A stretch of DNA of 64,000 nucleotides, taken from positions 41,279,795-41,343,794 of the forward strand of contig NC_092670.1 of the NCBI RefSeq assembly GCF_964355755.1. The letters are read 5' to 3'. This stretch comes from Antedon mediterranea (lineage: Eukaryota; Echinodermata; Crinoidea; Comatulida; Antedonidae). The stretch's first letter is position 1. Each line of letters begins with the position of its first letter. Below the pieces are notes generated by a model, which had not been told where the DNA came from, did not search any database, and saw only the letters and a list, made by a program, of their open reading frames with translations. This document shows positions 12,346-59,717 of this stretch, in pieces. A program made the translations under genes and the position numbers.

Positions 12346-13227
12346 TATACTAGACTTGCCCCAAGTCTGTATTGTTTTTTTTTTATTTATTTGTTTTTAT
12401 TTCGACCGCGATTTTTGTCTGAAAATCCCAAGTCTGTATTGTTTTTTTTAATTTATTTGTTTTTATTTCGACCGCGATTTTTGTCTGAAAATACAGACTT
12501 GTGAAACGTAGGTTATCATACCGTATTTGGCTATATGTAAATGTGGATTTCGAATCAACCAATGATCATTTTGTTTCAAAATGAAAAAGATCGAGTAGGC
12601 ACACGTACAGTGCTGAATGTACGATCGAGACTGTTAAAATATGAAATCGTGTTGCCAAGTTGTTTTGTTTATTAATTGTTTAGTGCTTAGCCTAGGCCTC
12701 CTCCGTAGGTCCTACTCAACTCGCACGTATGACCTGCCAAATAAAACGCCAACAAGGTAGGCCTACATAATACTGTACCACCACCGGCACACATAACAAC
12801 AGGATTCACACACAACAGACAGGGCTACACCACTACACAGAACAGGACAGGGTCTGGGTGCCCGTCTGGGTGGGAATTAAATCAAATTTTTCCGCGTAAT
12901 ATTAAATCAGGTAGATGTAAATTACTAATTAATCTCCCTGATTAAATTATCCATATAAAATCCTTTCTAGCCTTCAGAAACTGTCATCAATGTACCCATG
13001 GATTAAAGATTCTTTAATCCATGATGTACCCAAGTACACATTGTCTAAACGTAACATAGCGCATGCGTACCATCTTAGTTGTTGAGTATCTGAAATTCTG
13101 AAATATGAATATTAAAACGGTGTACGAGTGATTAGCCAATCGCATGCAGCTGAAACTAGTCAACCGGATAATCTATGCACCAAGAATTCTTGGTGTCAAA
13201 CCACGTGACTTTTGCGTGGTTCCCCCA
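12346..13227. mobile_element. Dispersed repeat element, copy A (left part)
   Basis: About 90-95% identical by eye to copy B at 14213-15030. Both start with ACTAGACTTGCCCCAAG, include a hairpin (AAGTCTGTATTG ... AAAATACAGACTT), a stretch with CCTGCCAAATAAAACGCCAA, and end near GTTTCCCCAG. Copy A has a ~68-bp tandem duplication of the hairpin arm (12360-12500) that copy B lacks. No coding sequence. The element continues after a foldback insertion as CAGACGGAGTATCC at 14185-14212. Related fragments lie at 24819-25012 and 31780-31945. Confidence 0.7.
12997..13023. mobile_element. 27-bp palindromic micro-insertion with 7-bp target duplication
   Basis: CATGGATTAAAGA-T-TCTTTAATCCATG is a perfect palindrome around one base. 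It is flanked by ATGTACC at 12990-12996 and 13024-13030. The paralogous copy B has a single ATGTACC and no palindrome (about 14829-14838), so this is an insertion. Confidence 0.8.
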
Positions 13228-14184
13228 GCCGGCCGCGATTTTTTTTTTCGTACATAAGTTGGGGACCCCTCATGAAACGTCACAAAATTCACATGAATAA
13301 TTCATCAGTTAAATTTTCTTGTTCCGTGTGCACCCAAGCGTATATAGCAACAAGAAGTGATTACACAAGTGCGGTACGATTCTAGGCCTATCTCCGCTGT
13401 TGTTGCGGCGTGCAATTTCATAGAAGAATAGCGGCGTTTTGTGTGGATTGTCGAAATAATCAGCCTTTAGTTTATGGTGTTTTTAATATAATTTATTACT
13501 AAAGAATTACGTGTTAAAATTATAGTTTCTATTAATACTATTAGGCCTAATTTAGTCTCTAAACCCATGTCTATTCTAGTAGTAGTAGCTGTGTGTGACG
13601 TGTGTGTGTTAGGTATGACCAAAGATTATAAGATAGTTACACTATCTTTGGTATGACACAATCCGAGTAATAAGTCAGCAAAATTAAACAATAAACATTA
13701 CACAAAAATACATTTTTTATTCTCGTGGGTCAAATCTTCCCATCTCATGTGTTCATATACGCGCATTTTTAAAGTTCCTTTGAGTACATGCATATTGTTT
13801 GATAATAAAATAGCAGAATTAAAAAAATACAGTACACAAAAATTATACACATTCTTTATTCTTGTGGGTCTAAGCTTTCTTTGGGCTATGTCCAATGAAT
13901 TACTACTTAGTTTAATGTCTTGCCTAGCTGTCGATTAGCCTCGACTCGACACATTTGGTGTGAAGAAGAGTGCGCGAAGGCAATCACGTGAATTGACTTA
14001 GAATCCTAGGCCTACTGTAGAAAGTATCGTAGCGCAGTAAGTTGTGACGTGTAATCACTTCTTGTTGCTATACGCTTGGGTGCACACGGAACAACAAATT
14101 TAACTGATGAATTATTCATGTTTATTTTGTGACGTTTCATGAGGGGTCCCCAACTTATGTACGAAAAAAAAAATCGCAGCCGGC
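13228..14184. mobile_element. 957-bp foldback element inside copy A
   Basis: About 165-bp terminal inverted repeats (13228-13395 and about 14020-14184) start GCCGGC(C/T)GCGATTTT and include the TACGCTTGGGTGCACACGG region. The ~620-bp interior has no convincing gene. The uninterrupted sequence CCCCAGACGGAG at 24813-24824 shows the empty site; the duplication appears to be only CA. Confidence 0.75.
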
Positions 14185-14212
14185 CAGACGGAGTATCCAA
14201 ACTCAAGTAATA

Positions 14213-15030
14213 CACTAGACTTGCCCCAAGCCTGTATTGTTTTTTTTTTTTATTTATTTGTTTTTATTTCGACCGCGATTTTTGTCTGAAAATACAGACT
14301 TGTGAAACACGTATAGAAATCGATTTGCAGACCGCAAACATCCGATAAGAATGACGTAGGTTATCATACCGTATTTGGCTATATGGGGCGGGTGGTATGT
14401 AAATATGGATTTCGAATCAACCAATGATCATTTTGTTTAAAAATGAAAAAGATCGAGTTAGGCCTACGTACAGTGCTGAATGTACGATCGAGACTGTTAA
14501 AATATGAAATCGTGTTGCCAAGTTGTTCTGTTTATTAATTGTTTAGTCCTTAGCCTAGGCCTCCTTCGTAGGTCCTACTCAACTCGCACGTATGACCTGC
14601 CAAATAAAACGCCAATAAGGTAGGCCTACATAATACCACCACCGGCACACAACAGGATTCACACACAACAGACAGGGCTATACACCACTACACAGAACAG
14701 GACAGGGTCTGGGTGGGAATTAAATCAAATTATCTCCGCGTAATATTAAATCAGGGAGATGTAAATTACATCTCCCTGATTAAATGATCCATATAAAATC
14801 CTTTCTAGCCTTCAGAAACTTTCATCAATGTACCCACTACACATTGTCTAAACGTAACATAGCGCATGCGTACCATCTTAGTTGTTGAGTCTTTGAAATT
14901 CTAAAATATGAATATTAAAACGGTGTACGAGTGAGTAGCCAATCGCATGCAGCTGAAACTAGTCAACCGGATAATCTATGCACCAAGAATTCTTGGTGTC
15001 AAACCACGTGACTTTTGCGTGTTTCCCCAG
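14213..15030. mobile_element. Dispersed repeat element, copy B (left part)
   Basis: Direct-orientation partner of copy A. It ends at GTTTCCCCAG (15021-15030), where the giant foldback is inserted. The element resumes at 24819 after a second GTTTCCCCAG. Confidence 0.7.
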
Positions 15031-15269
15031 GTATATAAACTATACCATACTGGCGAGTAAATCATGTTTTACTTTTTAAACCTCGCAACGTCTGGTTGAA
15101 AAGGCTACTCGGACCAATAATTTCTATTAGCCTAGGGGTTATTGCGATTTGGACGTTTCTGATTGGCTGTAGCCATGGACTATATTGATTAACACTGTTC
15201 TGATTGGTTGTAGCTTTGAATACATCTTCTCGGAACTCGTCCTTAATACAATAGCAATTTAGCACAGTG

Positions 15270-16690
15270 TTTTACTATATAACCAGATAAATAATAGGAA
15301 ACATTTAATAATTTGATAAATGACATTTAAATAGCAATTTAGGTAAATGTCTTTTGAAATGAAATTAAATAAATTATAACCAATTTAGTTAGAGTAAAAC
15401 ACAATGATAAAGAATAGGAAACATTTAATAATATGATAAATTACATTTACATAGCAATTTAGCACTGTGTTTTACTATAACCAATTTGGTTAGAGTAAAA
15501 CACAATGATAAAGAATAAGAAACATTTAATAACATGATAAATGACATTTAGCCATTTAGCACTGTGTTTTACTATAACCAATTTGGTTAGAGTAAAGCAC
15601 AATGATAAAGAATAGGAAACATTTAATAACATGATAAATGACATTCACATAGCAATTTACCACTGTGTTTTACTATAACCAATCAGATTAGAGTAAAACA
15701 CAATGATAAAGAATAGGAAACATTTAATAATATGATATATAACATTTACATAGCAATTTAGCACTGTGTTTTACTATAACCAATTTGATTAGAGTAAAAC
15801 ACAACGATAAAGAATAGGAAACATTTAATAACATGATAAATTACATTTACATAGCAATTTATCACTGTGTTTTACTATAACCAATTTGGTTAGAGTAAAA
15901 CACAATGATAAAGAATAGGAAACATTTAATAATATGATAAATTACATTTACATAGCAATTTATCACTGTGTTTTACTATAACCAATTTGGTTAGAGTAAA
16001 ACACAATGATAAAGAATAAGAAACATTTAATAACATGATAAATGACATTTACATAGCAATTTAGCACTGTGTTTTACTATAACCAATTTGGTTAGAGTAA
16101 AGCACAATGATAAAGAATAGGAAACATTTAATAACATGATAAATGACATTTACATAGCAATTTAGCACTGTGTTTTACTATAACCAATTTGATTAGAGTA
16201 AAACTCAACGATAAAGAATAGGAAACATTTAATAACATGATAAATTACATTTACATAGCAATTTATCACTGTGTTTTACTATAACCAATTTGGTTAGAGT
16301 AAAACACAATGATAAAGAATAGGAAACATTTAATAATATGATAAATTACATTTACATAGCAATTTATCACTGTGTTTTACTATAACCAATTTGGTTAGAG
16401 TAAAACACAATGATAAAGAATAGGAATTTAATAATATGATATATAACATTTACATAGCAATTTAGCACTGTGTTTTACTATAACCAATTTGGTTATGGTA
16501 AAGCACAATGATAAAGAATAGGAAACATTTAAAAATATGATAAATGACATTCACATAGCAATTTAGCACTGTGTTTTACTATACCAATTTGATTAGAGTA
16601 AAACACAATGATAAAGAATATGAAACATTTAATAATATGATAAATTGCTAGCACTGTGTTTTACTATACCAATTTAGTTTTGGATAAAGA
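15270..16690 (-). repeat. Left arm array of palindromic ~101-bp satellite, about 14 units
   Basis: Each unit contains an inverted repeat with arms close to GTGTTTTACTATAACCAA and its complement around a single base, followed by a ~60-bp AT-rich spacer. Orientation is opposite to the right arm. Confidence 0.9.
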
Positions 16691-17067
16691 ATATGAATTT
16701 AAAGAATGGATATAATATGATATGATACAATATGATTTTCTCCCAATTAGTAAGACATTTTGGAATACTGCGTGCGTAGTGCACCTAACAAGATCATGTT
16801 CGCTATTTAAAACTCACATTTTAAAACCGTAAACGCATAAATTTGCGGACATACTCGTAAAACACACTTCCAGAGATTTAATAATTTTAACAGTACTACA
16901 AAATCCATAATATAAAGTAGTATAGATTTGTACAAAAAGAGCAGAACAATTAAATTAACTGTCATTACATCTACTGAACTGTCTCATTACATCTACTGAA
17001 AAATTCATCGCGATGAATTTATTTATAATACACCAATCAGATCACACGCAATTAGTATGGAATGCCA

Positions 17068-17997
17068 GTTTAGGCGATGATAAAATCGCGTCGATGATGC
17101 AATGAAAATTGCGTCGATGTGATGAAAATTGCGTCGATGAATATAGTATTGATGTAATGATGTGATGAACATTGCGTCGATGAAAATTGCGTCGATGTAA
17201 TGAAAATTGCGTTAATGTGATGAAAATTGCGTCGATGAAAATTGCGTCGATGAAAACTGCATCGATGAAAACTGCATCGATGAAAAAAAAAATAATTTTC
17301 ATCGATGCAGTTTTCATCGATGAAAATTGCGATCTCCCTGCCGGTATGATTTGAATATGATGTCATGGATGCTGGACATCTGGATTTTATGTACTGAACT
17401 GGTGGATTAACGGAAGCAATTAGCTAGAAGATATAATGTGTCCGAAAGGACAATAATGGATCCATTGCTAAAATGTGTTGACAATAAATCACTAAAATGT
17501 TAATCAGTGCATATATTTCAACATTGTTTTAGTGCGCGATCACTGTGCGCTTGTCTATAACGCGCGCTAGCGCAAGCGGTAAACATGTTTATCATATCAA
17601 AATATTCAGAAACCGTCAATTTTTAGCAACATAATAACATTATTAACATCATTATTAACATCATCATTTACTTTACTAGTAGTCATTTTCATCATTGATT
17701 GAATTAAAACCATTTGGAATTTTTATAATCAATTAAATTCATCACATCAATTTTCATCGATGCAGTTTTCATCGACGCAATTTTCATCGATGCAGTTTTC
17801 ATCGACGCAATTTTCATCGATGCAGTTTTCATCGACGCAATTTTCATCGACGCAATTTTCATCGATGCAATTTTCATCGACGCAATGTAAATTGCGTCGA
17901 CGCAATCTACATTGCATCGACGCAATCTACATTGCGTCGATGCAATTTTCATCGACGCAATTTCATCATCGACGCAATTTTTATCATCGCCAAAAAC
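17068..17997. mobile_element. Nested foldback with 15-bp tandem repeats in its arms
   Basis: The left arm (17073-17330) and right arm (17740-17991) consist of a 15-bp unit, AATTTTCATCGACGC, or its complement, with CGATGCAG variants. Both arms begin GGCGATGATAAAA when read inward. The ~400-bp centre is unique. Open frames (repeated MKIAS/STQFS-type peptides) arise only because the period is a multiple of three. Confidence 0.75.
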
Positions 17998-18267
17998 TTG
18001 TGTAAAACGGCGTTCCAGAAGTGACGAATCGCATATTCGCCGTTTATTGTTGAGGCGCGTAAACAGTGTGCGCAATGCACGTTTTCTTCCCATGACGAGA
18101 CGAATCGATATTCGACTCTTCGTGTGACGAATAATCGTCAAATTATAATTAATATAATTAATTAATGAAATAAGATACGCAGTTGATGTTTGCATCAATT
18201 GTTCTTTAGAATAAATACTTTCGAAATACAAAACAAAAAATGTGTGGTGAGTGACGATATGTTCAAT

Positions 18268-18302
18268 CATGGACCTATAAATTACTAATTTATAGGTCCA
18301 TG
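18268..18302. mobile_element. 35-bp palindromic micro-insertion
   Basis: Arms of 17 bases (CATGGACCTATAAATTA and its complement) around a single C. Flanking 7-mers are GTTCAAT (18261-18267) and ATTCAAT (18303-18309), six of seven matching. Confidence 0.65.
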
Positions 18303-18649
18303 ATTCAATATCTGTAGCTTCAATTCAAACATAATGTAACAGAAAATTTGAAGCGTAAAAAACGTTCGTTTACACAACACTTTTTTTTTATACTTTATTA
18401 TTGATTATTATATTATACAGGAATACTATTTATTTCCTCATTTCTACCCAAGAATAAACAATTTTTGGATACAAAACTTTATGTGAATTACATTACCAAA
18501 ATATTAAAACGAGGATAAAAAAACATCGCGTAAAATACTCGTACTCAAAAGCTTCTGAAATTTGTAAATATATGTCATGAAAAAGAAATTTGACATTCCC
18601 AATAATTTTTTTTGGCAAAAATGTAATATATGAAACATACAATTTACAT

Positions 18650-19244
18650 AGTTTATCATTGTTTTTTATTAGAACCAATATGGTTACACAGTTAAACATA
18701 GTGATAAAGAATAGATACTTGTTAGGTTACTACCCTACCCTCTAGTTTGAAGCGACATTATAAATTCATCGAGAAAAAAAACGTATCGTATTCAGAAACG
18801 TTTGACATTTTGTATAGATATGTTCAATAAGACAAAACAAATTATAAATTTCAAGACAAATCGATGATTTCCATTATTTGCATTTCACAAAATTCACACT
18901 TATGAAAGACCATACATTTTCAACATTTCCTTTTTTCTGTGTACCGAGTTTAGAAACTTTTTGAATACCAGACGTATTTTTTTGTGATGCTTTTTCATTT
19001 GAATTGTAGTATAAAATGTCATTGAAACGAGATAAAAATCATACAAGACATGTTATAATAGGTTGCTCTATATACATAACAAAATTAGTTCTTTTTTTTG
19101 GTAAGAAACGCCAATGAAGTAGAAAGTTATTTCAGATGTAGTGTGCATTTATACGTCATTAATAGTAGGCCTAAAATATAATATTAAATATTATAAAGAA
19201 TATCAAACATTTTATGTTATGAAAAATAAAATTGACATATAAGT
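18650..19244. repeat. Diverged partial copy of the ~560-bp foldback
   Basis: Carries the same ordered motifs as the two elements that follow (a GTTAAACA.AGTGATAAAGAAT block, TAGTTTGAAGCGA, AAAACGTATCGTATTC, TATGTTCAATA) but with rearranged and missing parts. Confidence 0.55.
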
Positions 19245-19810
19245 TTATCATTGTGTTTTACTTAACCATTTTGGTTAAAAGTTAAACACAGTGAGTGATA
19301 AAGAATAGAACTGTTTTAGTTTATTTAACCCTAACCCTAGTTTGAAGCGATCACATATTTAATATTCATCGCTAAAAATACGTATCGTCTTGAAAAACGT
19401 TTGATATTTGGTAGATATGTTCAATATAGGTTCTTACATCTATAATGCAAAAGAAATATCCTAATAGTTTTATTTTGATTTCTGAGAATCATCAATGAAG
19501 TAAAAATGTGTTGGAAATGTATTGTCTTTCATAAGTGTAAATGTTTAGAAATGCAAATTATTAAAATCACGAATTTGTCTTGAAACTTTTATTTTTTGTT
19601 TGTTTTATAGACGTAAGAACCTATTGAACATTTTATTTACCAAATTTCAAATGTTTCTGAATACGATACGTATTTTTTCGCGATGAATTAAGTATGTGAT
19701 CGCTTCAAACTAGGGTTAGAGTTATATAACCTAAAACAGTGTCTATTCTTTATCATTGTGTTTAACTGTGTAACCAAATTGGTTCTGTAAAACAAGATGA
19801 TAAACTATGT
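19245..19810. mobile_element. ~560-bp foldback element, copy 1
   Basis: Inverted arms of roughly 200 bp. TAACCCTAGTTTGAAGCGAT near 19330 returns in complement near 19710, and GGTTCTTAC near 19430 returns as GTAAGAACC near 19614. The loop between is ~170 bp and noncoding. The outer ends resemble the 101-bp satellite palindrome (ACCA(A)TTTGGTT). Confidence 0.7.
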
Positions 19811-19869
19811 AACTTGTATTTATTATTATTACATTATATGTATCCTATAATGTAATATGAAAAATAAAA

Positions 19870-20440
19870 TGTACATAGTTTATCATTGTGTTGTACTAAA
19901 ACCAATTTGGTTAAAAGTTAAACACAGTGTTAAAGAATGAACTGTTAGGTTATTTAACCCTAACCCTAGTTTGAAGCGATCACATACTTAATTCATCGAT
20001 AAAAATACGTATCATCTTAAAAAACGTTTGAAATTTGGTACATGTTCAATATAGGTTCTTACATCTATAATGTAAAAGAAATATCATAATTTGTTTTATT
20101 TTGATTTCTGGGAATCATCAATGAAGTAAAAATGTGTTGGAAAATGTATGGTATTTCATAAGTGTACATTTTTAGAAATGCAAATTATTAAAATCACGAA
20201 TTTTTTTGTGAAATTTATATTTTTTGTTTGTTTTATAGACGTAAGAACCTATTAAACATATCTAACAAATTTCAAAAGTTTCTAAATACGAGACGTACTT
20301 TTTCGCGATGAATTTATTATGTCGCTTCAAACTAGGGTTAGGGTTATATAACCTAAAACAGTATCTATTCTTTATCACTGTGTTAACTGTGTCACCAAAT
20401 TGGTTCTGTAAAACAAGATGATAAACTATGTAACTTTATT
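19870..20440. mobile_element. ~560-bp foldback element, copy 2
   Basis: Second copy in the same orientation, with the same arms and loop and scattered substitutions. It ends next to the right-arm satellite array. Confidence 0.7.
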
Positions 20441-20559
20441 ATATTATTACATTATATGTATCCTATTCTTTTCATAACGTTTAGATAATAAGATATGTTT
20501 AATATAATATTTTGCTATGTAAATAATATCATATAATAAATGTTTCATTATCATTGTGT

Positions 20560-23500: not shown

Positions 23501-24420
23501 TAGTAAAACACAGTGATAAATTGCTATGTAAATGTCATTTATCATATTATTAAATGTTTCCTATTCTATATCATTGTGTTTTACTATAACCAAATTGGTT
23601 ATAGTAAAACACAGTGCTAAATTGCTATGTAAATAATAATTATTATTAAATATTTCCTATTCTTTATCATTGTGTTTTACTCTAACCAAATTGGTTATAG
23701 TAAAACACAGTGCTAAATTGCTATGTAAATGTCATATATCATATTATTAAATTCCTATTCTTTATCATTCTGCTTTACTTTAACCAAATTGGTTATAGTA
23801 AAACACAGTGCTAAATTGCTATGTAAATGTCATTTATCATATTATTAAGTGTTTCCTATTCTTTATCATTGTGTTTTACTTTAACCAAATTGGTTTTAGT
23901 AAAACACAGTGCTAAATTGCTATGTAAATGTCATTTATCAAATTATTAAATGTTTCCTATTCTATATCATTGTGTTTTACTCTAACCAAATTGGTTATAG
24001 TAAAACACAGTGCTAAATTGCTATGTGAATGTCATATATCATATTATTAAATGTTTCCTATTCTTTATCATTGTGTTTTACTCTAACCAAATTGGTTATA
24101 GTAAAACACAGTGCTAAATTGCTATGTAAATGTCATATATCATATTATTAAATTCCTATTCTTTATCATTCTGCTTTACTTTAACCAAATTGTTTATAGT
24201 AAAACACAGTGCTAAATTGCTATGTAAATGTCATTTATCATATTATTAAATGTTGCCTATTCTATATCATTGTGTTTTACTCTAACCAAATTGGTTATAG
24301 TAAAACACAGTGATAAATTGCTATGTAATGACATTTATCATATTATTAAATGTTTCCTATTCTTTATCATTGTGTTTTACTCTAACCAAATTGGTTATTG
24401 TAAAACACAGTATATTTTAC
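20560..24420 (+). repeat. Right arm array of palindromic 101-bp satellite, about 38 units, with higher-order repeats
   Basis: The period is 101 bp (for example CCTATTCT at 21383 and 21484). Blocks of about seven units repeat with a 692-694-bp period. The variant TATCATTCTGCTTTACTTT occurs near 22380, 23072 and 23764, and the CTTTGTCATTGTG variant near 21092 and 21786. Confidence 0.9.
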
Positions 24421-25153: not shown

Positions 25154-28100
25154 ATGGCAGGTAGCAGGTACCGTAGTTTTCTTCGATTATGCCGGAATTG
25201 GGCATTAGATTCTACAAAAGAAGGTCGTGATTTAGGAGCACACATTCGAAAAAAAGTGGCAGAAGGCTTTAAGCACGGGGAAAACACAAGGGTTTGAAAA
25301 TACAAATATTGTTTTTTCTTGCCTAGAAAGGGCCAGCAGTAGTAGGTAGGCTAGGAGGTGAGACTACTTTTAGGCCTAGCTAGGCCTAGCCTGCTAGCTA
25401 GAGCCTAGGCTCAGTGAGTGGCCTATCAATAGTACTGATACCTATTAAACTCACTGTTAACAGTAGTGGCCCGAACATTGAACTAGGGCCTAGTGGTGAG
25501 TTTTAAAGCTAGCGTTACTTATAAAAGGTATCATAAAAAATTATTAATCTTTTTATAAATATATAGCCTACTAGGCCTAGGCCTAGCCTAGTAGGGCCTG
25601 TATAGTATATATATTTATATATGAATAAATCTTTTAATTTTATTCTCTAGTTACTCAGAATGTTTGACCCTGGGCTGGCTGTACTGGAGAGAATAAACTA
25701 ATATTAATAATATCTAGGCCTATCTGTCCTTAATCCCACTAAACTTGATAAATTTTCTTATCTAGGTGGATGAGGTCGAGTGCCAACGCTTGTACAATGC
25801 ACTGGATAAGCTGTCTACAAATTATTATAAGAACAAGGTGACAATTAAGTGTTATTCATTCATTCATTCAGTCTTTTATTTCAGAAACTCTGGTCCATAG
25901 AAAGTAAATTACATATAAATGAAATAAATAAAGTAAACAAAATTACTACTACTCATCTCAGGATGGCATTCTATCTGGAGAGCATCTTCGACTTAACTAA
26001 GACATTGCTTATAATCGTTGAGATTAAAATATTTTTAAAACAACTCATTTTACAAAAAATGTATTTGACATACAGTAATGCCTATACTGTCTTTATTTAC
26101 TGTATACATTTTTGTCTTTTAGTATCCAACAGTGAGCAATTTAGGAGGATCGCTTGGTTTAGATGTTGAAGATTGCAGATTAGCCATGTCTACAGGTTTG
26201 TATTCAAGTTTAAAGGGGGATTCTGGGTTTAAAATTGCTTTTAAATATCGTTTATTTATTAAATAAAAAATATTATAACAATATAGACATTTCAGAATGA
26301 AGAAGTAATAACGAGAAATTAAAAAAATTTAATTTCATATACATTTTAGGGTAAATTCATGGAAAGTCTGTTTTTTAGCAGCTTAGGGAAGCTCATTAAT
26401 ATTCATGAGATATTCACAAAATCACGTCACCAGTGGATTCCAAACTCGCGACGTCATGTACGTTGTGTTTGTCAACTAATTTACATCTCTCTCCCCTGTC
26501 AAACGACGACCACCATTGTGATCATTGTGAAATACATTTTTTGTAGATTTTCTAAGCTAGGCCTAAAGTGTAATCAGGGAAAATTTTCATTTAAAAATTT
26601 TGTTTAGCAATATTGCTAATCAAACTGATTTTTAAGTCCAGAAACATAGTTTTGTATTGTATTTTTTGCTACACAATTTTCAAAATGTGTACCAATAAGG
26701 TTGTTTTGTATAGCTTTTTGCTACGCTACACTGGCGAAAATGTTCCCTGGTAATAATAACAGTAGTAGCATATATTTATTTGACATTTAATGAAATACAA
26801 AATTTAGTACAGATACGGAGTCATAAATTATACTACAGTATTTTTATACCTCTATAGTACAGATCGTATTATCGGCTTCACGTACAATACTACTCTAGGC
26901 CTAGCCTAATAATAATATGGGCGAGAGCCATTCTGACTAGGGATTCCATGCCACGATGGCTACGTTAAAACAATGGGGCCCATGGGCCTAGCTAGCCTAC
27001 TACTAGACGATTGGCCCATAAATAACAAAACCCATCCTATCAACCAAACTCCTAAACAATCTAAACCTAAAACATTCTACAAAATCGGCTGTAAATATTG
27101 AAGCAAAACAAGGTCCGATCGCCGTCCACACGTATGGTGTCCCGATCGTCTAAGTAGGCCTAAAATAAATAGGTTTAGTTTACTCTCCAAAAAAGCGGAT
27201 ACTCATGCATCAAGCAAGTAGACCAGGTAGTAGGAAGGAGACCTAGCCGATCCGGCCCAGTTAAAAATTGAGCTAGCTAGTGTAGTAGACCCTATGCGAA
27301 TTGATACTACCAGGCCTTTTACTATAGGCTGCACTACACAAATATTCCAACTCTCTCATTCGAGCTATATTATCTATACCATTCCGGTAGGTCGAGTCGA
27401 CCTTCAATCAAATACTGTACATCGTTCATGTTGTGATTATAGACGGGGTATACTCGACCCGACCAGTTTGGTATTGTTGTATCTGCTTATCACGTGACGA
27501 TGTGCCAGGCATGGGCATGCAGCAGAGAGAGCACGTGTATCGTCGTCTCGCTCGATCCTCAGCAGAAATGTCCAGTATACGTTACGCTTCATTGATTTTG
27601 ATTTTTCCCTAAGTCGGTGCGAAAATCAGCAAACGTAAAGTGCAAACATATCTAATTTTTCACTGTTTTGATGAATTTTCATAAAAAATTGACTTTATAA
27701 ATGGGAAGACCGACTAAAATTACATCAGATAAGTATAATTTTACAAAAGTAATTGATATGGTTTATGATAACGAGTCGTCGGAAGATGGACCATTTCACG
27801 AATTTCCTATTTTGTAACCACAGTGTGATTTTGCCGTAGCTGCACTTGTAATCTGGCCTGATTTCACAGCCTTCGTTCTGCTTCACTGGGCGCTTATATA
27901 AATTGAAACTTTTACCGTTCAAGAGACAAACAAATATATTTTACATTTTTTACTATTCATTTTAAACCCGGAACCCCCCTTTAAACGAGTGTCTAGAAAA
28001 CTCAGATCTAGAAAACTTAGATCTCCGATATATTTGAGTTTTCTAGATCTAGAAAAGTCAGATATCTAAGTTTTCAAGATCTAGAAAACTCAGATATCTA

Positions 28101-42267: not shown

Positions 42268-42299
42268 CGCAACGAATTATTTTAAGGTATGACATCATC

Positions 42300-43555
42300 A
42301 GGCAACACATCTTTCAGTATTAGTATTACAGTTTGTTTTTAAATCCCCCACCGATTCATTTTTTCCTATTTTTATTTCAACAATTGTACTTTTTAAAATT
42401 AAAATTGATAAAACAATACCGGTATTACAAATGATAAAACAATAATTATTACAAACCTCTCAAACAGTCGGGCAGCAAAGTGGTTGACCTCGCGAATTAT
42501 TACCAAATCAAAATTTGAATTGCCGCCATCTTGGAATCGCGATAAAGCAAGTAGTGCGGAATTACAAAATGCAGCCAAAAAAAATGTCAATAACATTTAA
42601 ATAGCATATTCATACAATTAAATTTATATTAATAAAATTCAACTAAGGATTTTACGAAAGATAGGCTACTTAAGAAATACTGCCGAGATCGGTTCCCCCA
42701 CACGGCGTAGGGTACCGCAGTGCTAAGGGGCCTAGGTAGGAAAAAATCTGATTTTACCTGTTAAACATGCTTGAACCAAGGCCATTTTAATATATATTAT
42801 CCAGATTATATATCAAAACAAACTGATAAAAGGATTTGTTGATTTGCTTCTGATGAGAAAAGTGCCGGATTCATTTCGCTGACGGCGAATGAATACACGA
42901 ATTTTCGCCATTTTCTAGCACTAGCCTTGGGTACCCAGACAGCTGATAACGATTATATTCGATTGTCCAGACGTCTCTGCTACTGGTGCTCAATACTACA
43001 GTATGTATTACTATGGACCTATAGGTCCATGGTATTACTGTACATATAGTACTGTATGTTTAGTTTTTGCTTTCTTTATGGCAAAATAAATATTTAATTT
43101 TTATTATTGCTTATTTTGCTTTAACTTTATCCAAGAAGAAGTAAATATTATTATATATATGCATATTACAGTCAAGTTGCAACTGCCACGAATCCACTCC
43201 ACTTTGGTTACTAACTAAATAATTAATTAATAGTATAACATCATAACTAACAAACAAATTAACAAGTTAATAAATTAACCACCATTAAATAATTTTATTT
43301 ACAAAAAAGTATTTTACATACAGTATAACATGTAATATCTTATTTACATCGAAGTAAAATATGCCTATCAAACTATCTTGCTCAGGCTAAAATATCAAGT
43401 TATATATGTCAATATTTGAGTTAAATCATCGCGATAATAAAAATTTTTAGTTTTTTTTTATTTTTAAAGACATCTGTTACGTACATCAATTTACAAATAT
43501 CAAAATAGGATTGTTTTTGCAGCACAAGATGAATCACAAGTCGGATAGTTTATTC
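42300..43555. other. Intergenic, no gene seen
   Basis: AT-rich. The only structure I can support is the 20-bp palindrome at 43012-43031. CTGATGAGAAAAGTGCCGGA at 42852 recurs at 44410 as a short shared word. Confidence 0.5.
43012..43031. mobile_element. 20-bp palindromic micro-insertion with 7-bp target duplication
   Basis: TATGGACCTATAGGTCCATG is flanked by perfect GTATTAC repeats (43005-43011 and 43032-43038). The arms share ATGGACCTATA with the 35-bp element at 18268. Confidence 0.75.
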
Positions 43556-44682: not shown

Positions 44683-44691
44683 ACCGGAAGT
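44683..44691. promoter_or_regulatory. ETS/GABP-like site
   Basis: ACCGGAAGT is a perfect ETS-family consensus in a locally more GC-rich patch (44640-44760). This may mark a promoter for the minus-strand candidate at 44484 or for a noncoding transcript. Confidence 0.3.
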
Positions 44692-44699
44692 CACTATAA

Positions 44700-45439: not shown

Positions 45440-45476
<37 letters not shown>

Positions 45477-51700: not shown

Positions 51701-54700
51701 CAATACCTAACCAAATAATAGTTTACATTTAAATTGAATACTATGCTTGGTCAAGTATCTGCCTTAATCGGTAAGTCGTAGGCCTACAATACCTAACCAA
51801 ATAATAGTTTACATTTAAATTAAATACTATGCTTGGTCAAGTATCTGCCTTAATCGGTAAGTCGTAGGCCTACAATACCTAACCAAATAATAGTTTACAT
51901 TTAAATTATATACTATGCTTGGTCAAGTATCTGCCTTAATCGGTAAGTCGTAGGCCTACAATACCTAACCAAATAATAGTTTACATTTAAATTAAATACT
52001 ATTGTTGTTAATGCTTGAACAGATTTGACCAATCACAAGCGATGGATATTTAGAACTGTCATGGGTCAACACGCTCTTGTGGTCAGATGCTCGGATACTG
52101 ACATGCTAATTATTAATCTTTGAATTAAAATTATTTTGAATTCATGTTGAATGTATTACTAATAAAATACCCTTCCTTAGGCTATAGGTACAGTAAATCT
52201 ATAACATTTTAGACCTATTATGCCTACACTTCATCAACAATGCTCGATTTGAATGCACATGATTTTTAGTTGGTAGGCGATGTCCTCTTCCTAAGTTTAA
52301 TTTTGATTACCCCATAATATTTGTATTAGCAGTCCTAAAAATTGTGTATATTTACTACTTCTATCAATTTAAATTATAGATTATGTTTGTTTAATTTAAG
52401 GTAGCAGTATCTGGCTCGTTATCGCAACGGTAGTACGATTACCAGTATCTGGTACACACAGCATAGTTGGTGCAGTCATTGGCTACCATGTAGTGGTGTT
52501 TGGTCTTGAGGGTATACAATGGTCGGAGTTAGGTAAAATCGGTAAGAGTACGATTACCAGTATCTGGTACACACAGCATAGTTGGTGCAGTAATTAGCTG
52601 CCATGTAGTAGTGTTTGGTCTTGAGGGTATACAATGGTCGGAGTTAGGTAAAATCGTAAGAGAATACATATATAGGTATAAAACAAGGAACTTGCGACGG
52701 TATACAATTATGTTAGGTTTTCACCTTTGGTATCTATTTCGATAGATAAAATCGTAAATTGAATCGTACATTGATAAACATTGATATAAAATAATGATGT
52801 CGGTTGAAACTATTGTTGTTTTTACCTATAGTAATATCGTGGTTTACAAACTATTGTTGTTTTTACCTATAGTGATATCGTGGTTTACAAACTATTGTTG
52901 TTTTTACCTATAGTGATATCGTGGTTTACAAACTATTGTTGTTTTTACCTATAGTGATATCGTGGTTTACAAACTATTGTTGTTTTTACCTATAGTGATA
53001 TCGTGGTTTACAAACTATTGTTGTTTTTACCTATAGTGATATCGTGGTTTACAAACTATTGTTGTTTTTACCTATAGTGATATCGTGGTTTACAAACTAT
53101 TGTTGTTTTTACCTATAGTGATATCGTGGTTTACAAACTATTGTTGTTTTTACCTATAGTGATATCGTGGTTTAATAACTATTGTTGTTTTTACCTATAG
53201 TGATATCGTGGTTTACAAACTATTGTTGTTTTTACCTATAGTGATATCGTGGTTTACAAACTATTGTTGTTTTTACCTATAGTGATATCGTGGTTTACAT
53301 CGCCTGTCCTATCTGGATTGTTATCCATATTTTTCTTTTATATTCTTCTAAAAACGGTTTTATTGAAGGTAAGTATTTTGTTCTAGTAACTTTTGTAAGT
53401 AGTTTAGCTTTACATTTACATTCTCGAAAACAGAGACTCCCTTGATAGAACACAACATTGAACATTTTAGTGGGCGTTTTGTTTTAGAGATTTATGAAAA
53501 GAGAAAACCACTATAAGAAAACAATATTAAAAGAATGTTTAAATCTCTCGAAAACAGAGAATCCGGTACAATATTGTAAGACATTTGGCAGCCATTTTGA
53601 ATTTTGTCGGCCATCTTTTTGAGTCGTGACATACTCATTTATAGGTTACATTCTGATGATAACAGCCTAACATTTATCAATCAATCATAATCATACCCAA
53701 ATATTGTTTACCGAGTTTTTTTTAATTATAAAAATAAATTGTCTAGGATAATCCTTTGGAGCCAGGTTTGAAGTCACTACCTGTTTGGTATTCACTCGTC
53801 ATCACTGTCAACTTCTTCTCTATTTTCTATAATACCTCAGGAGGTAAGTAGGCTTACTTTTTCTACTAATGATCTTCTGTTATCTATCACTATTCAGTTT
53901 ATTAAACTTGATCAGTTGTATAGAGAATGTTTAAACAAAATGGTACTGACACAACCAGCATGCTGGTACTTAGTCATTTTTATACATGTACTGATGAATA
54001 AAGTCTCTCTATTTTGGTAATTATACTTATCGTCATTAGCAGTTATGGCTAATTCAAATCGTAAATTGCTAAAATCAATTTAAATAACCTTAAATAGTAG
54101 TTGTATAGTAAAGCTGTGTTTATTTAGAAATATATTTAGAAACACGCATTCCATTAGGTATAGATCTTTTAAACGTCGACTTAATTGCTATTGTGCATGC
54201 TATATTAACTGGAGTGTAACTATCATTGTGACAAATTCTATCGTATTTGTAGTGTTTGAAGGTATAATACCACTGTACGGAGTCTTCATACTCAGCTTTG
54301 GAAGTGGAATTTTGGCTGGTCTTATTGTATTCTGTGTACTGGTTCCGCGTTTGAGAAACAAAATACAAGGTAAATATTCATGAATACCGGTCCTTTCTCA
54401 AAACTTTATTTTAAAATGCAATCTGTACAAAGTCGACCTTTCAATAAAGTAAACGATAAAGTAAACTTTTGAGGAATCGTAGCAATGTTTCAACAAACAA
54501 CAAGTTTGTGTGTGAGTGTTCATTTTTGTTTTCTCGTTTGGCTAGAAATGGTTCCAATTATGTTCCATGCAGATTCAAATGAAATCACTGATATACAAAA
54601 AAACACCAACGATGAAACCTCACAAGGTAAGACACCAATTAAATGAGAGAATAAAAAATGTGCACTTATACTGGAAACACTATAAAAAAGAAATGGTTAG

Positions 54701-55639
54701 ATTGATATAAGCCTTTTTTATGGATAGATGAGCAGAGGCAAAGTAGAGTAGCTGCTGATGATGAATGTGTAGATGAATCGGCGACATTATGTAGAGATGA
54801 TCATCCAATTGTTGTACAACTATGTTCTCCTCTTCTCATACTCTCAGCAGTGTTTTCGTCATTTTCACATGGCGGTAATGATGTTAGGTAAATATACTAG
54901 ACATAAGAAGACTTAGAAGAAAGTATAATATTCAATTAAATTGCACTCTATCTTGTCAGAGTTCAATTTTCGACATATAGAAATTTTTAATTATCATTTT
55001 CCTTTTAGTAATGCAATAGGTCCAGTTATCTCTATTTGGGTCACATATGAGACAGGCGAAGTAGATACAGCAGTTGAAACTCCATTGTGGATTTTGTTCC
55101 TTGGAGGAGTAGCTATTTCACTAGGATTATGGTTGCTTGGAAAGCGAGTAATACAAGTTTTAGGCGAAGAGATTACCATGTTAACACCATCAAGGTAATT
55201 GTAGTTTCTTTGAACCAAGGAAAGTAAAATTAATTTCACTCTTCCCTGTTGGAACGCATTAGGCCCATATTCTTTTTTCTCTTCTACGATGTGTTCTTTT
55301 TTCTCTATTTGAGTAGTAGTAATATCTAATGAAATATCATTTCTGTGATTAAATTCAATAGTGATGTAATGTTTATATATCTATTTTTGCCATTTCAGTT
55401 CGTTTACTATAGAACTTGGATCTGCTTTAACAGTTTTAACGGCTTCCAATCTTGGTATCCCAATTAGTACGACACATTGTAAAGTTGGGTCTATTGTTGC
55501 AGTGGGTTCTTTTCGTTCTGGAACATCATCCGTTGATTGGTCTTTGTTTCGTAATATTGCAATATCGTGGTTTTTAACTGTACCAACTTGTTTGATATTT
55601 AGTGCTGTATCTATGGAATTACTGATGTTCACAGTTTAA
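45723..55639 (+). CDS. Sodium-dependent phosphate transporter, SLC20 (PiT) family
   Basis: Ten exons: 45723-45786, 50311-50649, 52401-52541, 53283-53368, 53747-53843, 54253-54369, 54546-54626, 54728-54887, 55009-55194 and 55399-55639. They total 1512 nt and encode 503 aa, with consistent phases at every join. The two PiT signature repeats are present: [11 protein letters not shown] at residues 63-73 and HGGNDVSNAIGP at 356-367. Also seen are [32 protein letters not shown] and its C-terminal counterpart [12 protein letters not shown]. The family imports inorganic phosphate with Na+ at the plasma membrane. The intracellular loop between the two halves is short (~65 residues, exons 6-8) against 200 or more in vertebrate PiT1/PiT2, accounting for most of the shorter length. 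The ATG at 45723 is preferred because exon 1 ends in phase 1, as exon 2 requires. Poly(A) signals lie at 55860-55865 and 55903-55908. Confidence 0.95.
45850..50300. repeat. 103-bp minisatellite, about 43 copies, SLC20 intron 1
   Basis: The unit runs from GATTACAACAATTGGGATCG through CTTGTCCAGTTAGAGGTGCT, CTATTCTCGAGAATAG and GACTATTATTATTTGTACAT. Each unit holds a perfect 16-bp palindrome around XhoI-type CTCGAG. The last partial unit becomes GATTACAACAATTGCAG|GG, the acceptor of exon 2. A 12-unit higher-order repeat (~1241 bp) occurs within 48.0-49.95 kb, marked by rare variants near 48070/49312, 48272/49512 and 48669/49910. Confidence 0.95.
50623..51995 (+). repeat. 86-bp array of the SLC20 exon 2 end plus donor, about 16 copies
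   Basis: Copy 1 is the real exon end. Each later copy repeats ATGCTTGGTCAAGTATCTGC CTTAATCG|gtaagt and ~58 bp of intron. All copies keep a strong donor and have the same one-base change (ATCG for ATTG). No copy has an acceptor. Confidence 0.95.
52010..52400. other. SLC20 intron 2 tail with a dispersed-repeat piece
   Basis: 52020-52070 (GACCAATCACAAGCGATGGA ... ACTGTCATGGGTCAAC) is the complement of the 127-bp repeat at 32.0-32.4 kb. The rest is unremarkable. Confidence 0.6.
52548..52656 (+). pseudogene. Partial duplicate of SLC20 exon 3
   Basis: Copies 52433-52541 immediately downstream with a few changes. The acceptor is missing, and the junction is now AAATCG|taag because one G is lost, so the donor is shifted or weakened. 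Confidence 0.8.
52812..53300 (+). repeat. 41-bp array of the SLC20 exon 4 acceptor plus exon start, about 12 copies
   Basis: The unit is TTGTTGTTTTTACCTATAG followed by TGATATCGTGGTTTACAAAC TA. The last copy runs into the true exon at 53283, so each unit has a complete pyrimidine tract, AG and the first ~16 exon bases (one early copy reads TAATATCG). None has a donor. Confidence 0.95.
53369..53746. other. SLC20 intron 4
   Basis: TCTCGAAAACAGAGA recurs at about 53424 and 53546. Nothing else is supported. Confidence 0.5.
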
Positions 55640-55748
55640 CACTAACCTATGTGTTGTTTAGTACTGACGTATCTATGGAATTACTGATGTTCACAGTTTA
55701 ATCCTAATCTGTGTTATGGTAGTATCTATGGAATCACTGTTTAACAAC
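55640..55748 (+). repeat. Duplicated end of the SLC20 terminal exon in its 3' UTR
   Basis: The last codons and stop (GTATCTATGGAATTACTGAT GTTCACAGTTTAA) recur almost exactly at about 55668-55701, and a shorter diverged third copy lies at about 55729-55748. Confidence 0.85.
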
Positions 55749-55929
55749 CCTAGTGTAATTGGAATTTCATTTGATTTGCTTTTAACAAGACCGAGCAGAA
55801 AAAGAAGTGTCTTAATATGAGACATAATAATTAGGCCTATAGCTACTATTTTCTTCCTGAATAAATTGATGTTCTTTCGTTTAATTAATAATACTTTTAT
55901 TGAATAAATACTTTCTATGTTGACATAAT

Positions 55930-57000
55930 TGGTTGTGTGAAGATGTACGGTCGTGGAAATTGTTTTTCATGGTAACTCCGATTGTGCATAGCACTGTCGA
56001 ATGCGTGAAGAACTGTGATACAAAGTTAATTATCATATCACATCTTAAACATTTTGTTTTCATGGTAACTCCGATTGTGCATAGCATTGCCGAATGCGTG
56101 AAGAAATGTGATACAAAGTTAATTGTCAAGTCACATCTTAAACATTTTGTTTTCATGGTAACTCAGATTGTGCATAGCATTGCCGAATGCGTGAAGAACT
56201 GTGATACAAAGTTAATTGTCAAGTCACATCTCAAACATTTTGTTTTCACGGTAACTCCGATTGTGCATAGCATTGCCGAATGCGTGAAGAACTGTGATAC
56301 AAAGTTAATTGTCAAGTCACATCTTAAACATTTTGTTTTCACGGTAACTCCGATTGTGCATAGCATTGCCGAATGCGTGAAGAACTGTGATACAAAGTTA
56401 ATTGTCAAGTCACATCTTAAACATTTTGTTTTCACGGTAACTAACTCCGATTGTGCATAGCATTGCCGAATGCGTGAAGAACTGTGATACAAAGTTAATT
56501 GTCAAGTCACATCTCAAACATTTTGTTTTCACGGTAACTCCGATTGTGCATAGCATTGCCGAATGCGTGAAGAACTGTGATACAAAGTTAATTGTCAAGT
56601 CACATCTAAACATTTTGTTTTCACGGTAACTCCGATTGTGCATAGCATTGCCGAATGCGTGAAGAACTGTGATACAAAGTTAATTGTCAAGTCACATCTA
56701 AACATTTTGTTTTTACGGTAACTCCGATTGTGCATAGCATTGCCGAATGCGTGAAGAACTGTGATACAAAGTTAATTGTCAAGTCACATCTAAACATTTT
56801 GTTTTCATGGTAACTCCGATTGTGCATAGCACTGTCGAATGCGTGAAGAACTGTGATACAAAGTTAATTATCATATCACATCTTAAACATTTTGTTTTCA
56901 TGGTAACTCCGATTGTGCATAGCATTGCCGAATGCGTGAAGAACTGTGATACAAAGTTAATTGTCATAGCACATTTCAAAACATCAAACAACGATTTTTC
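55930..57000. repeat. 93-bp minisatellite, about 11 copies
   Basis: The unit starts GGTAACTCCGATTGTGCATA and includes GAATGCGTGAAGAACTGTGA and AAGTCACATCTTAAACATTT. Because 93 is 31 codons, it is open for long stretches on both strands (up to 175 codons). A four-base insertion and one-base deletions in some units break the frame, and there is no leader or splice support, so I treat it as noncoding. It begins just past the SLC20 poly(A) signals. Confidence 0.9.
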
Positions 57001-57091
57001 GTTAATCATGTAAAACCGCAATGATGTACTTTTTGTAATACTGAGTGCTATAATATTAATAAGTAATAATTATAATATGATTCATTATTGC

Positions 57092-59717
57092 ATGCACCTC
57101 AGCAGCTCCCAGGATGTGACGGGCATGGTGGCGCTATTCATATTGATCGCTATCAAGATATCCGGTAAATACTTGACTTGTATTATAGTGTCGGTTTCCT
57201 TTTCAGATACTTAATATCATCGTTTTCGATTGAAAATCTGTTAGAAAAAATGAATCTTATTATCACATTTTCTCAATTTTTTCTTATGATTATTATTTGT
57301 GTCTCTTCAGGTGAGTATTTTGTTGTTGTTTATTAGAAGTAGTGTTTAATAGAAAGTTTCTTTATTAAAGGTTAATTAGTCCATATTAGTACGGTGTAAA
57401 TATCTATGATTTGTTTAATGAAATAAAATATATAGAAAGCTTCCAAATGTAAAATCAGGACGTGGTCATCATCATGTCAAACAGTATAACATTATTAAAT
57501 AATTTTAATTTTAGTATTATATTATGGTGAAGAAATGTTAATGTACAATATAGTTTATATGCAGATTCATTGCACAAATCGCTAAATTCAAAAAGTACTT
57601 TCAGACGTAAAACTCAAACATTGGAAGCAAATGACAAATGATTCGCACTTAATTAAACAGGGTAGGCATATGAGCTATTATAATGCCGTTTTGACTTGTA
57701 AAGTCTGGAAGGTTCATGTGCCAGAACATTTAGCGTTTATCAGTAAGATTAACTCATGGTAATTATTGTACATTGTACGGCAAACCAGTATATTATTATA
57801 ACAAGATTAATTATTATTTTTATGATTCGAAGTATAAATTCTTGATTTTTTTTTCAAATGTAACTGAGTAATAATGCATTGACCTGGAAGTTCCATAGGG
57901 AATACACAGACAGGAAGTTCTTCCCTTGCCACGCGCAGATTATTGTACGCTCACCGACGGCAGTGAAAATAGAACATGTTTGCATCCTGTTTTTAACTTT
58001 TTATCTCTAGTAATACATTTATAATAACATTCCTTAAACACGAAAACAAGAATTGCATCCGTAACGGTTTAAGTATTACATTAGATTATTGTAGAAACTG
58101 TTGTATAAGTTTAAATATAAATGTGTTGCCCTTTTATATTTCAAGTGATTTTAAATGTAACCCTTGATTATGTTTTTAGACAATTTTAATAACTTTTATG
58201 AAATCCGCAATATTCAGCATGTTTGTATAAAAATATTGTATGTAGGTCATAGGTAGGCCTAAATGTTTTTAATATTTGTAAATTTTTTTTATTCACTTTG
58301 AAATATACTATGTCATTAAAATAAAACACGTTTTAACAATAATCACAAATATGTACGCGTCACTTGCATGTGACAAAAAAAATGGAGAACATGACCTTTG
58401 TTTTTAATTTTAATAATACAAGAGAATATACATACTATATGCCTTATTATAGTGAACTTGTATATATTGAAATAATTTGTACTGCAAACTGAATTTACTG
58501 AAATAAAAGTGGGACGAGCCCATAAAAGACAAAACAAAAGATTATTGTAGAAACTGCTGTTAAAATCCCACAGTCTGACCCGTTTATTGGTCAAACAACA
58601 TTTTCTCGTCCTTGCGCAAAGACACACAAAAGACAATTCAATAATTTCTATTCACTACAGAAACATTTATTCACTGAAAATACTTTTTTAAGAGAATACA
58701 CATATTTATCCTTAAAATTTCTTTTATAAAAGTATAAGCCAAATGTTACAAATAATTTCATACATTTATGAAAAGTCTTTTTGATACTTTCTTCGTACAT
58801 GTGAACAATTTATTATGCTGAAATAGTTAATGCCTTATTTGAAAACATACTCACGCCACGTCATCCAAAGAAAATTACTCATTCACAAACGAAATGGTTG
58901 ATGCATGGAGGTATAACTCCATGGTTGATATGAAAGTATCACACGTCAAAAGAGAACCATGGGCAGAAAATACTCGTTCGGCATGACATTTGCTTTATTT
59001 CAAGTTGCAAATGAAAATAAATGTAAATTAGCTATTTAGCATTTCAGAAGTGTTTTAGGGAGTAAAAAGAAATGTTGCTAAGCAAAACAGCTATGGCAAA
59101 CTGGTAAAAAAAAAATTAAAAAATTTGAAAAGGATATACTACAATAATAAACAATCATCATTGATTAAATAAAACTATTTCAGAAATGCGAAATAATAAT
59201 TATCTATTTTCTAGATTCAAAAAGTTTACTGCTGACCTCTAACCAAGAAAGGCGATCGAGTTTTCCACCAAAGATTAATGCAAACCTTTTCAAGGAGTTG
59301 AAACGTCGAAATCCGATTATGACTCCTTGGTGGTCAACAACAGCTACTACAGCAATCAAAGATTTTGAATTGATAACACTGCCCTCTAGAATGCAATCGG
59401 GTAAGTTAGTGCACAGTCCAGGTTAGGTGGTATATTTTCATTGATCCTCTTCGTGTGTATGTTGCATGCATTGTCTGATTATTGGAGGTATACTTCTATG
59501 GTCTGACCATGGAGAGTTAAGTTAATCCTAACTTATTTCTCCATGGTCTGACGGACTCATAACCGACAGTTTCGATTTATTCATACAGGTACAAAACAAA
59601 AAACATATAGCCAAACAGTAGAAATTACACGTTAGTCTATAATGCTTAATGGTAGAGGAATTATTTCATTTCTATACAGTTGAACGTTGGAAGCAATCAG
59701 GTACCATGTTTAATTAA
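57092..59717 (+). CDS. Candidate small secreted or signal-anchored protein (three exons)
   Basis: Proposed exons are 57092-57164, 59215-59400 and 59680-59717 (stop TAA 59715-59717), 98 aa, or 87 aa from the Met at 57125. All joins are phase 1 with good sites (CCG|gtaaat, ttttctag|ATTC, TCGG|gtaagt, tatacag|TTGA). The N-terminus has a hydrophobic stretch MVALFILIAIKIS that could be a signal peptide. The 186-nt middle exon is fully open and reads like a peptide precursor: NQERRSSFPPKINANLFKEL followed by KRRNPIMTPWW. Basic ERR and KRR sites could be processing sites. The end is VERWKQSGTMFN; alternatively TCAG|gtacca is a donor and the gene continues. No family is recognised. The middle exon is the best supported part. 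Confidence 0.4.
57301..57316 (+). promoter_or_regulatory. Candidate recursive splice site (zero-length exon)
   Basis: GTCTCTTCAG|GTGAGT, preceded by a T/C-rich stretch (TTTTCTCAATTTTTTCTTAT near 57265), joins a strong acceptor directly to a strong donor. That is the form of a ratchet point. It lies within the proposed first intron of the 57092-59717 candidate. It could instead be an ordinary acceptor of a short terminal exon, which would stop after eight codons. Confidence 0.35.
58904..58923. mobile_element. 20-bp palindromic micro-insertion
   Basis: CATGGAGGTATAACTCCATG has 7-bp perfect arms. Flanks are GTTGATG (58897-58903) and GTTGATA (58924-58930), six of seven matching. Confidence 0.65.
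59508..59545. mobile_element. 38-bp palindromic micro-insertion with 7-bp target duplication
   Basis: The ends are CATGGAGA and TCTCCATG, with inner arms TTAAGTTA/TAACTTA. Perfect GTCTGAC repeats flank it at 59501-59507 and 59546-59552. Confidence 0.75.

Follow-up and report, generated by a model that had tools for sequence, protein, structure and literature searches.

The window analysed here, 64,000 nucleotides of the crinoid Antedon mediterranea, raises the question of how very short palindromes with CATGG/CCATG ends came to lie between 7-bp direct repeats. An earlier note on this DNA had recorded five of them, read them as repeated insertions, and offered minimal foldback elements moved in trans or scars of internal deletion as their nature. 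We re-read the sequence and recovered all five palindromes and their flanks, three flank pairs being perfect and two matching at six of seven positions. The interpretation is partly supported, and the evidence favours end-joining footprints of P-superfamily excision: with a probability of about 0.95, the palindromes are the mended sites of excised P-superfamily DNA transposons and not miniature mobile elements.

Scar 1 (12990-13030) consists of a 27-bp palindrome (12997-13023) between two copies of the target-site duplication (TSD) ATGTACC. By inspection, one arm takes 13 nt and the other 15 nt from the end CATGGATTAAAGAATAGAAGGATATGCATC, with an overlap of 1 nt, and its parent is extant as two intact 1,289-bp elements with perfect TSDs (L081 and L082). 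The paralogous copy B carries a single ATGTACC (14828-14834) and no palindrome, the empty site that had been reported for it. Scar 2 (18261-18309) has a 35-bp palindrome (18268-18302) between GTTCAAT and ATTCAAT, with, by inspection, one arm of 17 nt and one of 18 nt from a CATGGACCTATAAATTAG end; it recurs with the identical nine flanking bases at C1:8916797, 19300970 and 21486386. Scar 3 (43005-43038) is a 20-bp palindrome (43012-43031, first base T) between two copies of GTATTAC, the arms of which could overlap at TATA; the form with first base C and identical flanking bases is found at C1:2818467, 5100583 and 13148717. Because they recur elsewhere with identical flanking bases, sites 2 and 3 probably lie in dispersed repeats. 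Scar 4 (58897-58930) has a 20-bp palindrome (58904-58923) between GTTGATG and GTTGATA, in which, by inspection, 13 nt of the CATGGAGGTATAA end make up one arm and 7 nt the other; its parent ends are present in L017, L035, L036 and L080. Scar 5 (59508-59545) forms part of a tandem pair at one target (59473-59552), in the order GTCTGAT, a decayed scar at 59480-59500 (TATTGGAGGTATACTTCTATG), GTCTGAC, scar 5 and GTCTGAC. Searches recovered no parents for sites 2, 3 and 5.

That decayed scar was missed by the earlier note, as were several further sites in the window. A second decayed scar, CATGGAGGTATAAAAATA-like and assigned by inspection, lies at 26814-26856 between perfect GTACAGA flanks (26807-26863). 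Three other palindromes likewise have perfect 7-bp flanks. In copy A, a probable scar of another family (12901-12947) has 33 bp at 12908-12940 (CAGGTAGATGTAAATTACTAATTAATCTCCCTG) between copies of ATTAAAT; its copy B equivalent (14745-14785) has the same flanks around 27 bp at 14752-14778 (CAGGGAGATGTAAATTACATCTCCCTG) and differs in the centre. A probable scar of a third kind (13613-13657) has 31 bp at 13620-13650 (CAAAGATTATAAG...CTATCTTTG) between copies of GTATGAC.

Within the window, a loose family-blind scan (arms 6/7, flanks 6/7) gave 52 places, many of them from minisatellites, where six simulated windows gave 9-15, an excess that is by itself a weak sign; the reality of the palindromes is settled by genome-wide counts. 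The plain pattern CATGG-N(0-30)-CCATG has 11,900 matches against 6,247 in the control, so that about half are background. With two more bases in each arm, the exact pattern CATGGAG-N(0-30)-CTCCATG occurs 1,849 times and the reversed pattern 7 times, while gaps of 31-61 yield 136 against 41, several of them composites. The CATGG pattern with arms other than GAG has 801 matches against 240. As the earlier note had proposed, we compared the flanking 7-mers: among 64 CATGGAG matches listed, which include repeat copies (e.g., six from one ACGTTTAC repeat), 47 pairs are identical, nine match at six positions and eight at three or fewer. Thus 56 of the 64 agree at six or seven positions, well above the 111 of 4,032 obtained by pairing flanks across different loci, and they include 43 distinct junctions. 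Identity stops at seven bases, with exact 8-mers at 1/64 and 9-mers at 0/64. For the other arms (57 distinct rows among the matches listed), flanks of 6-7 accompany 20 of 35 loci with arms of at least 8; where the arms are shorter, the figure is 3 of 22. The palindrome with 7-bp flanks is therefore confirmed as a real, genome-wide feature, and the claim of repeated insertion with 7-bp duplications holds. The eight listed CATGGAG loci lacking a TSD count against the scar reading; a TSD is also absent at 15 of the 35 listed non-GAG palindromes, several of which belong to a single CATGGACAACGATCG family, dispersed and probably not scar-derived.

Longer members encoding a transposase, which the earlier note had suggested seeking, are present in the genome. 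The element at L017 is 6,324 bp long; its inverted ends, perfect over 32 bp, start CATGGAGGTATAAAAATAGAAGGAG, and the TSD GATACCG lies on both sides. Its 582-aa ORF matches PF21787 and the P transposase structure 6p5a (E 6e-5). PF21787 is also found in ORFs of L011, L015 and L018, with PF21788 above and PF21789 below cut-off in L011, PF12017 above cut-off in L015 and just below it in L018, and 6p5a matched at E 1.5e-14 (L011) and 3.1e-9 (L015). Judged by these matches, the parents encode transposases of the P/THAP9 type, with an RNase H fold and a GTP-binding insertion. No THAP domain was matched in the eight ORFs scanned, where introns may hide exons; zf-AD matches in L015 and L017 are sub-threshold. 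Inverted repeats with a 7- or 8-bp TSD, as expected of the superfamily, are likewise seen: the TSD is 7/7 in L011-L013, L017, L035 (890 bp), L036 (3,130 bp), L080 (878 bp), L081 and L082, and 5/7 in L073 and L074, whose flanks are identical to each other. L014, L015, L018, L037, L038 and L075-L079 have a single good end only. The earlier note had named P among families with duplications near 7 bp and had claimed no terminal match; the ends do match in L017, L035, L036 and L080-L082. Intact ends are commoner than scars in the CATGGATTAAAGAA family: of the 100 matches listed, 59 continue into the interior as judged by eye. The intact-end motif CATGGA-N(9-14)-AAGGAG matched 68 and 76 times and its control 69 and 41 times; not clearly above the control, it provides no count of intact elements. 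Four 9.8-kb pieces yielded no two-ended parent with CATGGACCTATAAATTAG ends, only one-sided ends followed by GTTTACAAA, and a search for two-ended parents of the CATGGACC and CATGGAGAAATAAG ends found none.

The anatomy of the palindromes links them to these parents. Across 85 listed loci of the CATGG family they hold only the outermost bases of the ends, up to about 20 nt per end, and AGAAGG is absent from all 85; the farther arm stops within 3 nt of the start of GAAGGAG on either side, the lower limit of this range being fixed by the 14-base search word. Outer ends alone, on both sides and between TSDs, are what an excision footprint contains, the exceptions being a few loci that retain interior element sequence (C2:2467402, C2:35210469). 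As to MITE membership, palindromes with no interior beyond about 20 nt per end in these 85 loci do not belong to that class; L035, L080, L081 and L082 do have an interior. A second P family has ends CTGAGACAACAATCAAAGAG and is represented by three copies of about 5.56 kb with 7-bp TSDs and PF21787. Its scar pattern occurs 43 times against 5 in the control, with a longest arm of 17 nt; once one repeat is set aside, flanks of 6-7 accompany just 9 of 25 of these CTGAGAC loci. That this family, with ends unrelated to CATGG, also leaves scars is moderately supported. The arm limits of 17 nt here and at most 20 nt in the CATGG family would agree roughly with a 17-nt staggered cut leaving 3' tails.

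One repeat further provides a same-site series. Of 40 copies examined (from 227 candidates), 37 could be parsed: three have a single GTTTGAC without a scar, and 34 have two to five GTTTGAC/GTTTTAC units, the first slot showing 14 different contents, eight of them two-armed scars. This bears on one rival, that the palindromes are themselves 20-40 bp foldback elements or micro-MITEs mobilised in trans. TSDs on both sides would fit it, as would the recurrence of some palindromes, e.g., CATGGAGGTATACCTCCATG, with different TSDs among the 64 loci listed; yet such recurrence is equally expected from joining at the self-complementary TATA. The 85 listed loci comprise 60 distinct junctions and one homologous target bears different ones, which speaks against the foldback option of the earlier note, and Drosophila P must have no less than 138 bp of one end and 216 bp of the other to transpose and excise, as given in the accessible part of PMC1562414. 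We regard mobile micro-elements as very improbable. Equally improbable is that inserted elements later shrank through replication slippage or deletion of the centre of inverted repeats. The few forms with interior sequence speak for it, and the copies at 12908 and 14752 differ by six bases in a row, perhaps a later indel; however, random deletion predicts a continuum of sizes with no fixed boundary, whereas in both P families, the ends of which are unrelated, arms run no further than 17-20 nt. Scars were among the options offered earlier; their origin by internal deletion is not supported. Chance palindromes or host ones such as protein-binding sites could supply the simulated-window matches and the background half of the plain pattern, but the 1,849-to-7 ratio, the flank agreement and the intact transposons carrying the matching ends make them a negligible prospect. 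Programmed somatic elimination, a separate candidate, is not favoured, since some scars have been copied within dispersed repeats and TSDs have mutated, both suggestive of inherited events.

In the excision reading, insertion would duplicate 7 bp with a consensus of about GTNNNAC. This is a preference and not a fixed sequence: 41 distinct exact TSDs, strand-symmetrised, have G at position 1 (49%), T at 2 (76%), A at 6 (76%) and C at 7 (49%). The excising transposase would make a staggered cut, through one strand where the transposon ends and through its partner about 17-20 nt further in, within the inverted repeat, so that each flank would retain the outermost 17-20 nt of the end as a 3' tail. 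After trimming, these two like tails would be joined, whether through an overlap, bluntly or by way of filler bases, and the product would read TSD, outer end, inverted outer end, TSD. The sequence itself shows the parents, which share the ends and carry 7-bp TSDs, as well as the boundary at which arms stop, the putative second-family scars and the differing junctions at one homologous site; the strand geometry is modelled on Drosophila biochemistry, and we infer the joining pathway and germ-line timing. No excess of microhomology was detected: among direct joins, 11 of 18 overlap by at least 1 nt against 40% expected (p 0.09), and a second sample gave 34/85 against 34/78 simulated.

In arrays, the 7-mer is present as many as five times, and the scars in between belong to different end families. 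We tentatively suggest, at somewhat short of even odds, that restored TSDs (GTNNNAC beside CATGG) remain preferred targets, such that cycles of insertion and excision add TSD-scar units at one and the same 7 bp in a ratchet, the scars forming an archive, genome-wide and locus by locus, of natural end-joining products. In an animal genome, so many natural scars of P-type excision are a readable record of transposon departures, which normally stay invisible. From it, sequence could be used to estimate how far P transposases outside Drosophila stagger their cuts, to what extent end joining is used in place of homologous repair, and how strong the preference for target re-use is. It also warns of a possible misannotation, in which short TSD-flanked palindromes are taken for micro-MITEs.

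The literature searched, of partial coverage that does not establish absence from print, yielded no genome-wide description of such scars. The kind of scar is already known from Drosophila; what stands out here is its abundance and the re-use of one 7-bp target. In the accessible part of PMC2895639, laboratory excision junctions of the Drosophila P element comprise a TSD, the outer end (CATGATGAAATAACATA), an overlap or filler, the inverted outer part and a TSD, a form like that of the Antedon scars (Table 1 therein). Those are laboratory events with an 8-bp TSD, whereas the Antedon scars have a 7-bp TSD, are many in one assembled genome, derive from several end families and have arms of at most 17-20 nt. 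Galileo, a Drosophila member of the P superfamily, shares the 7-bp TSD; its consensus is GTANTAC/GTATTAC in the portion of PMC4168063 at hand, against about GTNNNAC here after strand symmetrising. Its repeats are unusually long and foldback-like according to the available text of PMC3688188, unlike the 32-bp ends of the L017 parent. The P elements and P-MITEs of Anopheles, as far as the accessible part of PMC1562414 describes them, include non-autonomous elements with P-element ends; they have an 8-bp TSD and are elements, whereas the Antedon palindromes are, on the reading preferred here, scars.

The five palindromes of the window (C1:41,279,795-41,343,794) and their 7-bp flanks agree in coordinates and sequence with the earlier note. 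Across the genome (354 Mb in 18 contigs, one strand), the pattern CATGG-N(0-30)-CCATG gave 11,900 matches versus 6,247 for the reversed pattern used as a control, and two extra bases per arm (CATGGAG-N(0-30)-CTCCATG) gave 1,849 versus 7. The flanks were compared at 64 loci among the matches listed, all from the start of contig C1 and including several copies of single repeats: the flanking 7-mers were identical in 47, matched at six of seven positions in 9 and at three or fewer in 8. Exact 8-mers were shared at one of these loci and 9-mers at none; since such longer words are almost never shared whereas 7-mers mostly are, the duplication is 7 bp. The proposal of 7-bp target duplications thus holds, with flanks of 6–7 matches in 56 of the 64 listed loci versus a background of 111 in 4,032 cross-locus pairs. 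Allowing for repeat copies leaves 43 distinct junctions with a good duplication, and 41 distinct duplications, when symmetrised, yield a consensus of about GTNNNAC. In a loose scan, the units of a 41-bp tandem repeat at window positions 52818-53261 imitate palindromes with 7-bp flanks.

We read these palindromes as scars left by the excision of P-superfamily transposons. The P-type transposase domain PF21787 was found at 35 genomic places (E <= 0.001). One of the elements retrieved, L017, spans 6,324 bp, with 32-bp ends CATGGAGGTATAAAAATAGAAGGAGAGAGCTC and a GATACCG duplication at each side; PF21787 lies in its 582-aa ORF, which also matches the Drosophila P transposase of known structure (6p5a). 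It also encodes a PHD-finger ORF of 120 aa (positions 1095-1457) and a 342-aa ORF (1880-2908) without a Pfam match. L017-like ends with perfect 7-bp duplications bound three further elements of 890 bp (L035), 3,130 bp (L036) and 878 bp (L080), and two loci (L015 and L018) each combine a single good CATGGAG end with an ORF containing PF21787. For the end family of site 1, the first window palindrome, nine loci were retrieved. L081 and L082 each hold an element of 1,289 bp whose duplications are perfect; L073 and L074, which have identical flanks, each hold one of 671 bp with a 5/7 duplication; in the remaining five, a single end was seen in the retrieved stretch. No two-ended parents were found for the ends of window sites 2, 3 and 5.

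The scar arms stop at a restricted position in the element end. In 85 CATGGAGGTATAAA loci among the matches listed, compared with intact ends after leaving out three overlapping rows, the longer arm ends within 3 nt of the start of GAAGGAG on either side, i.e., at 14–20 nt, the lower bound of 14 nt being imposed by the search word. AGAAGG, although present as the continuation of intact ends, occurs in none of the 85. When the gap is widened from 0–30 to 31–61, the matches fall to 136 (control 41), several of which are two or more consecutive scars; a few exceptions (C2:2467402, C2:35210469) retain interior sequence. By eye, 6 of 100 ends starting CATGGAGGTATAAA and 59 of 100 starting CATGGATTAAAGAA, among the matches listed, continue into the element interior, so that the excess of scars over elements varies by family. 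An all-family intact-end motif, CATGGA-N(9-14)-AAGGAG, was left out of the counting (68 and 76 matches versus 69 and 41 in the control).

A second P family has ends CTGAGACAACAATCAAAGAG, unrelated to the CATGG type. Its three elements of ~5.56 kb (L011, L012, L013) are 99% alike, and each has a perfect 7-bp duplication and a 794-aa ORF with PF21787 and PF21788, a combination that suggests recent activity. Because excision is the proposed cause, this family is expected to have scars of its own. CTGAGAC-N(0-30)-GTCTCAG matches 43 times in the genome versus 5 in the control. Among the matches listed, flanks of 6–7 occur in 47 of 65 loci; 40 of the 65 are copies of one repeat, and only 9 of the other 25 have such flanks. 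The longest arm is at most 17 nt. These scars lend moderate support to the excision reading. Four retrieved stretches (L075, L076, L077, L079) carry a CATGGATTAAAGAA element end and a CTGAGAC-family scar with an ATGTAGG duplication, ~550-690 bases apart; the repeat with this ATGTAGG-flanked scar shows 10 different junctions among 40 rows listed.

A dispersed repeat provided a junction series at one target. A query from it returned 227 candidates. Scoring covered 40 of these; every one of the 40 had its target read, and 37 could be parsed. Three of the 37 carry one GTTTGAC without any scar; the remaining 34 carry between two and five 7-mers (GTTTGAC or GTTTTAC) separated by sequence. Across these 34, 14 different contents occur in the first slot. 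Two-armed scars make up eight of the 14, including CATGGAGGTACTCCATG (13 copies), CATGGAGGTATATTTTACCTCCATG (4), CATGGAGGTATATCCATG (3), CATGGAGGTATACCTCCATG (1) and, from another end family, CATGGAGTAATTACTCCATG (1); the remainder are shorter remnants or rearranged sequence. Judging from these junctions, independent excisions, perhaps with fresh insertions at the same 7 bp, would explain the spread better than mutation, and gene conversion among repeat copies may have contributed. Point mutation of one finished palindrome is a poor source, from which such a spread would be hard to derive. Tandem scars on one target (TSD-scar-TSD-scar-TSD, TSD being the target duplication) occur at window positions 59473-59552 and in the retrieved stretches L019-L028 and L039-L068, with up to five target copies and adjacent scars from different end families; the 7-bp target seems to have been re-used. 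At C2:11742658-11742730 one scar is apparently nested in another, CATGGAGTAATTCTTTACTCCATG inside a CATGGAGGTAT scar.

Other palindrome families also occur in the window. CAGGGAG-type palindromes (CAGGGAGATGTAA) at 12908-12940 (paralogous copy A) and 14752-14778 (copy B) share ATTAAAT flanks and differ in their centres, much as the copies of the dispersed repeat differ at their target, though a later indel may account for this difference. The palindrome CAAAGATTATAAG...CTATCTTTG at 13620-13650, between perfect GTATGAC repeats, is probably the scar of yet another family.

The interest lies in the number of scars, the same-site series and the target re-use, rather than in any new mobile element. 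The staggered cut of P transposase is given as 17 nt (PMC7776569; PMC10983969), and P excision is described as leaving ends with 17-nt 3' tails (PMC2895639). Repaired laboratory sites in Table 1 of the latter consist of a TSD, a CATGATGAAATAACATA-type tail, overlap or filler, an inverted tail and a TSD; the Antedon scars have the same anatomy. As a measure of possible microhomology use in joining, overlaps of at least 1 nt were found in 11 of 18 direct joins versus 40% expected (p 0.09), and in a second sample in 34 of 85 versus 34 of 78 simulated joins. The Antedon scars are a known kind of lesion, of which this genome offers a large natural collection; their duplications are 7 bp long, the size also described for Galileo (PMC4168063).
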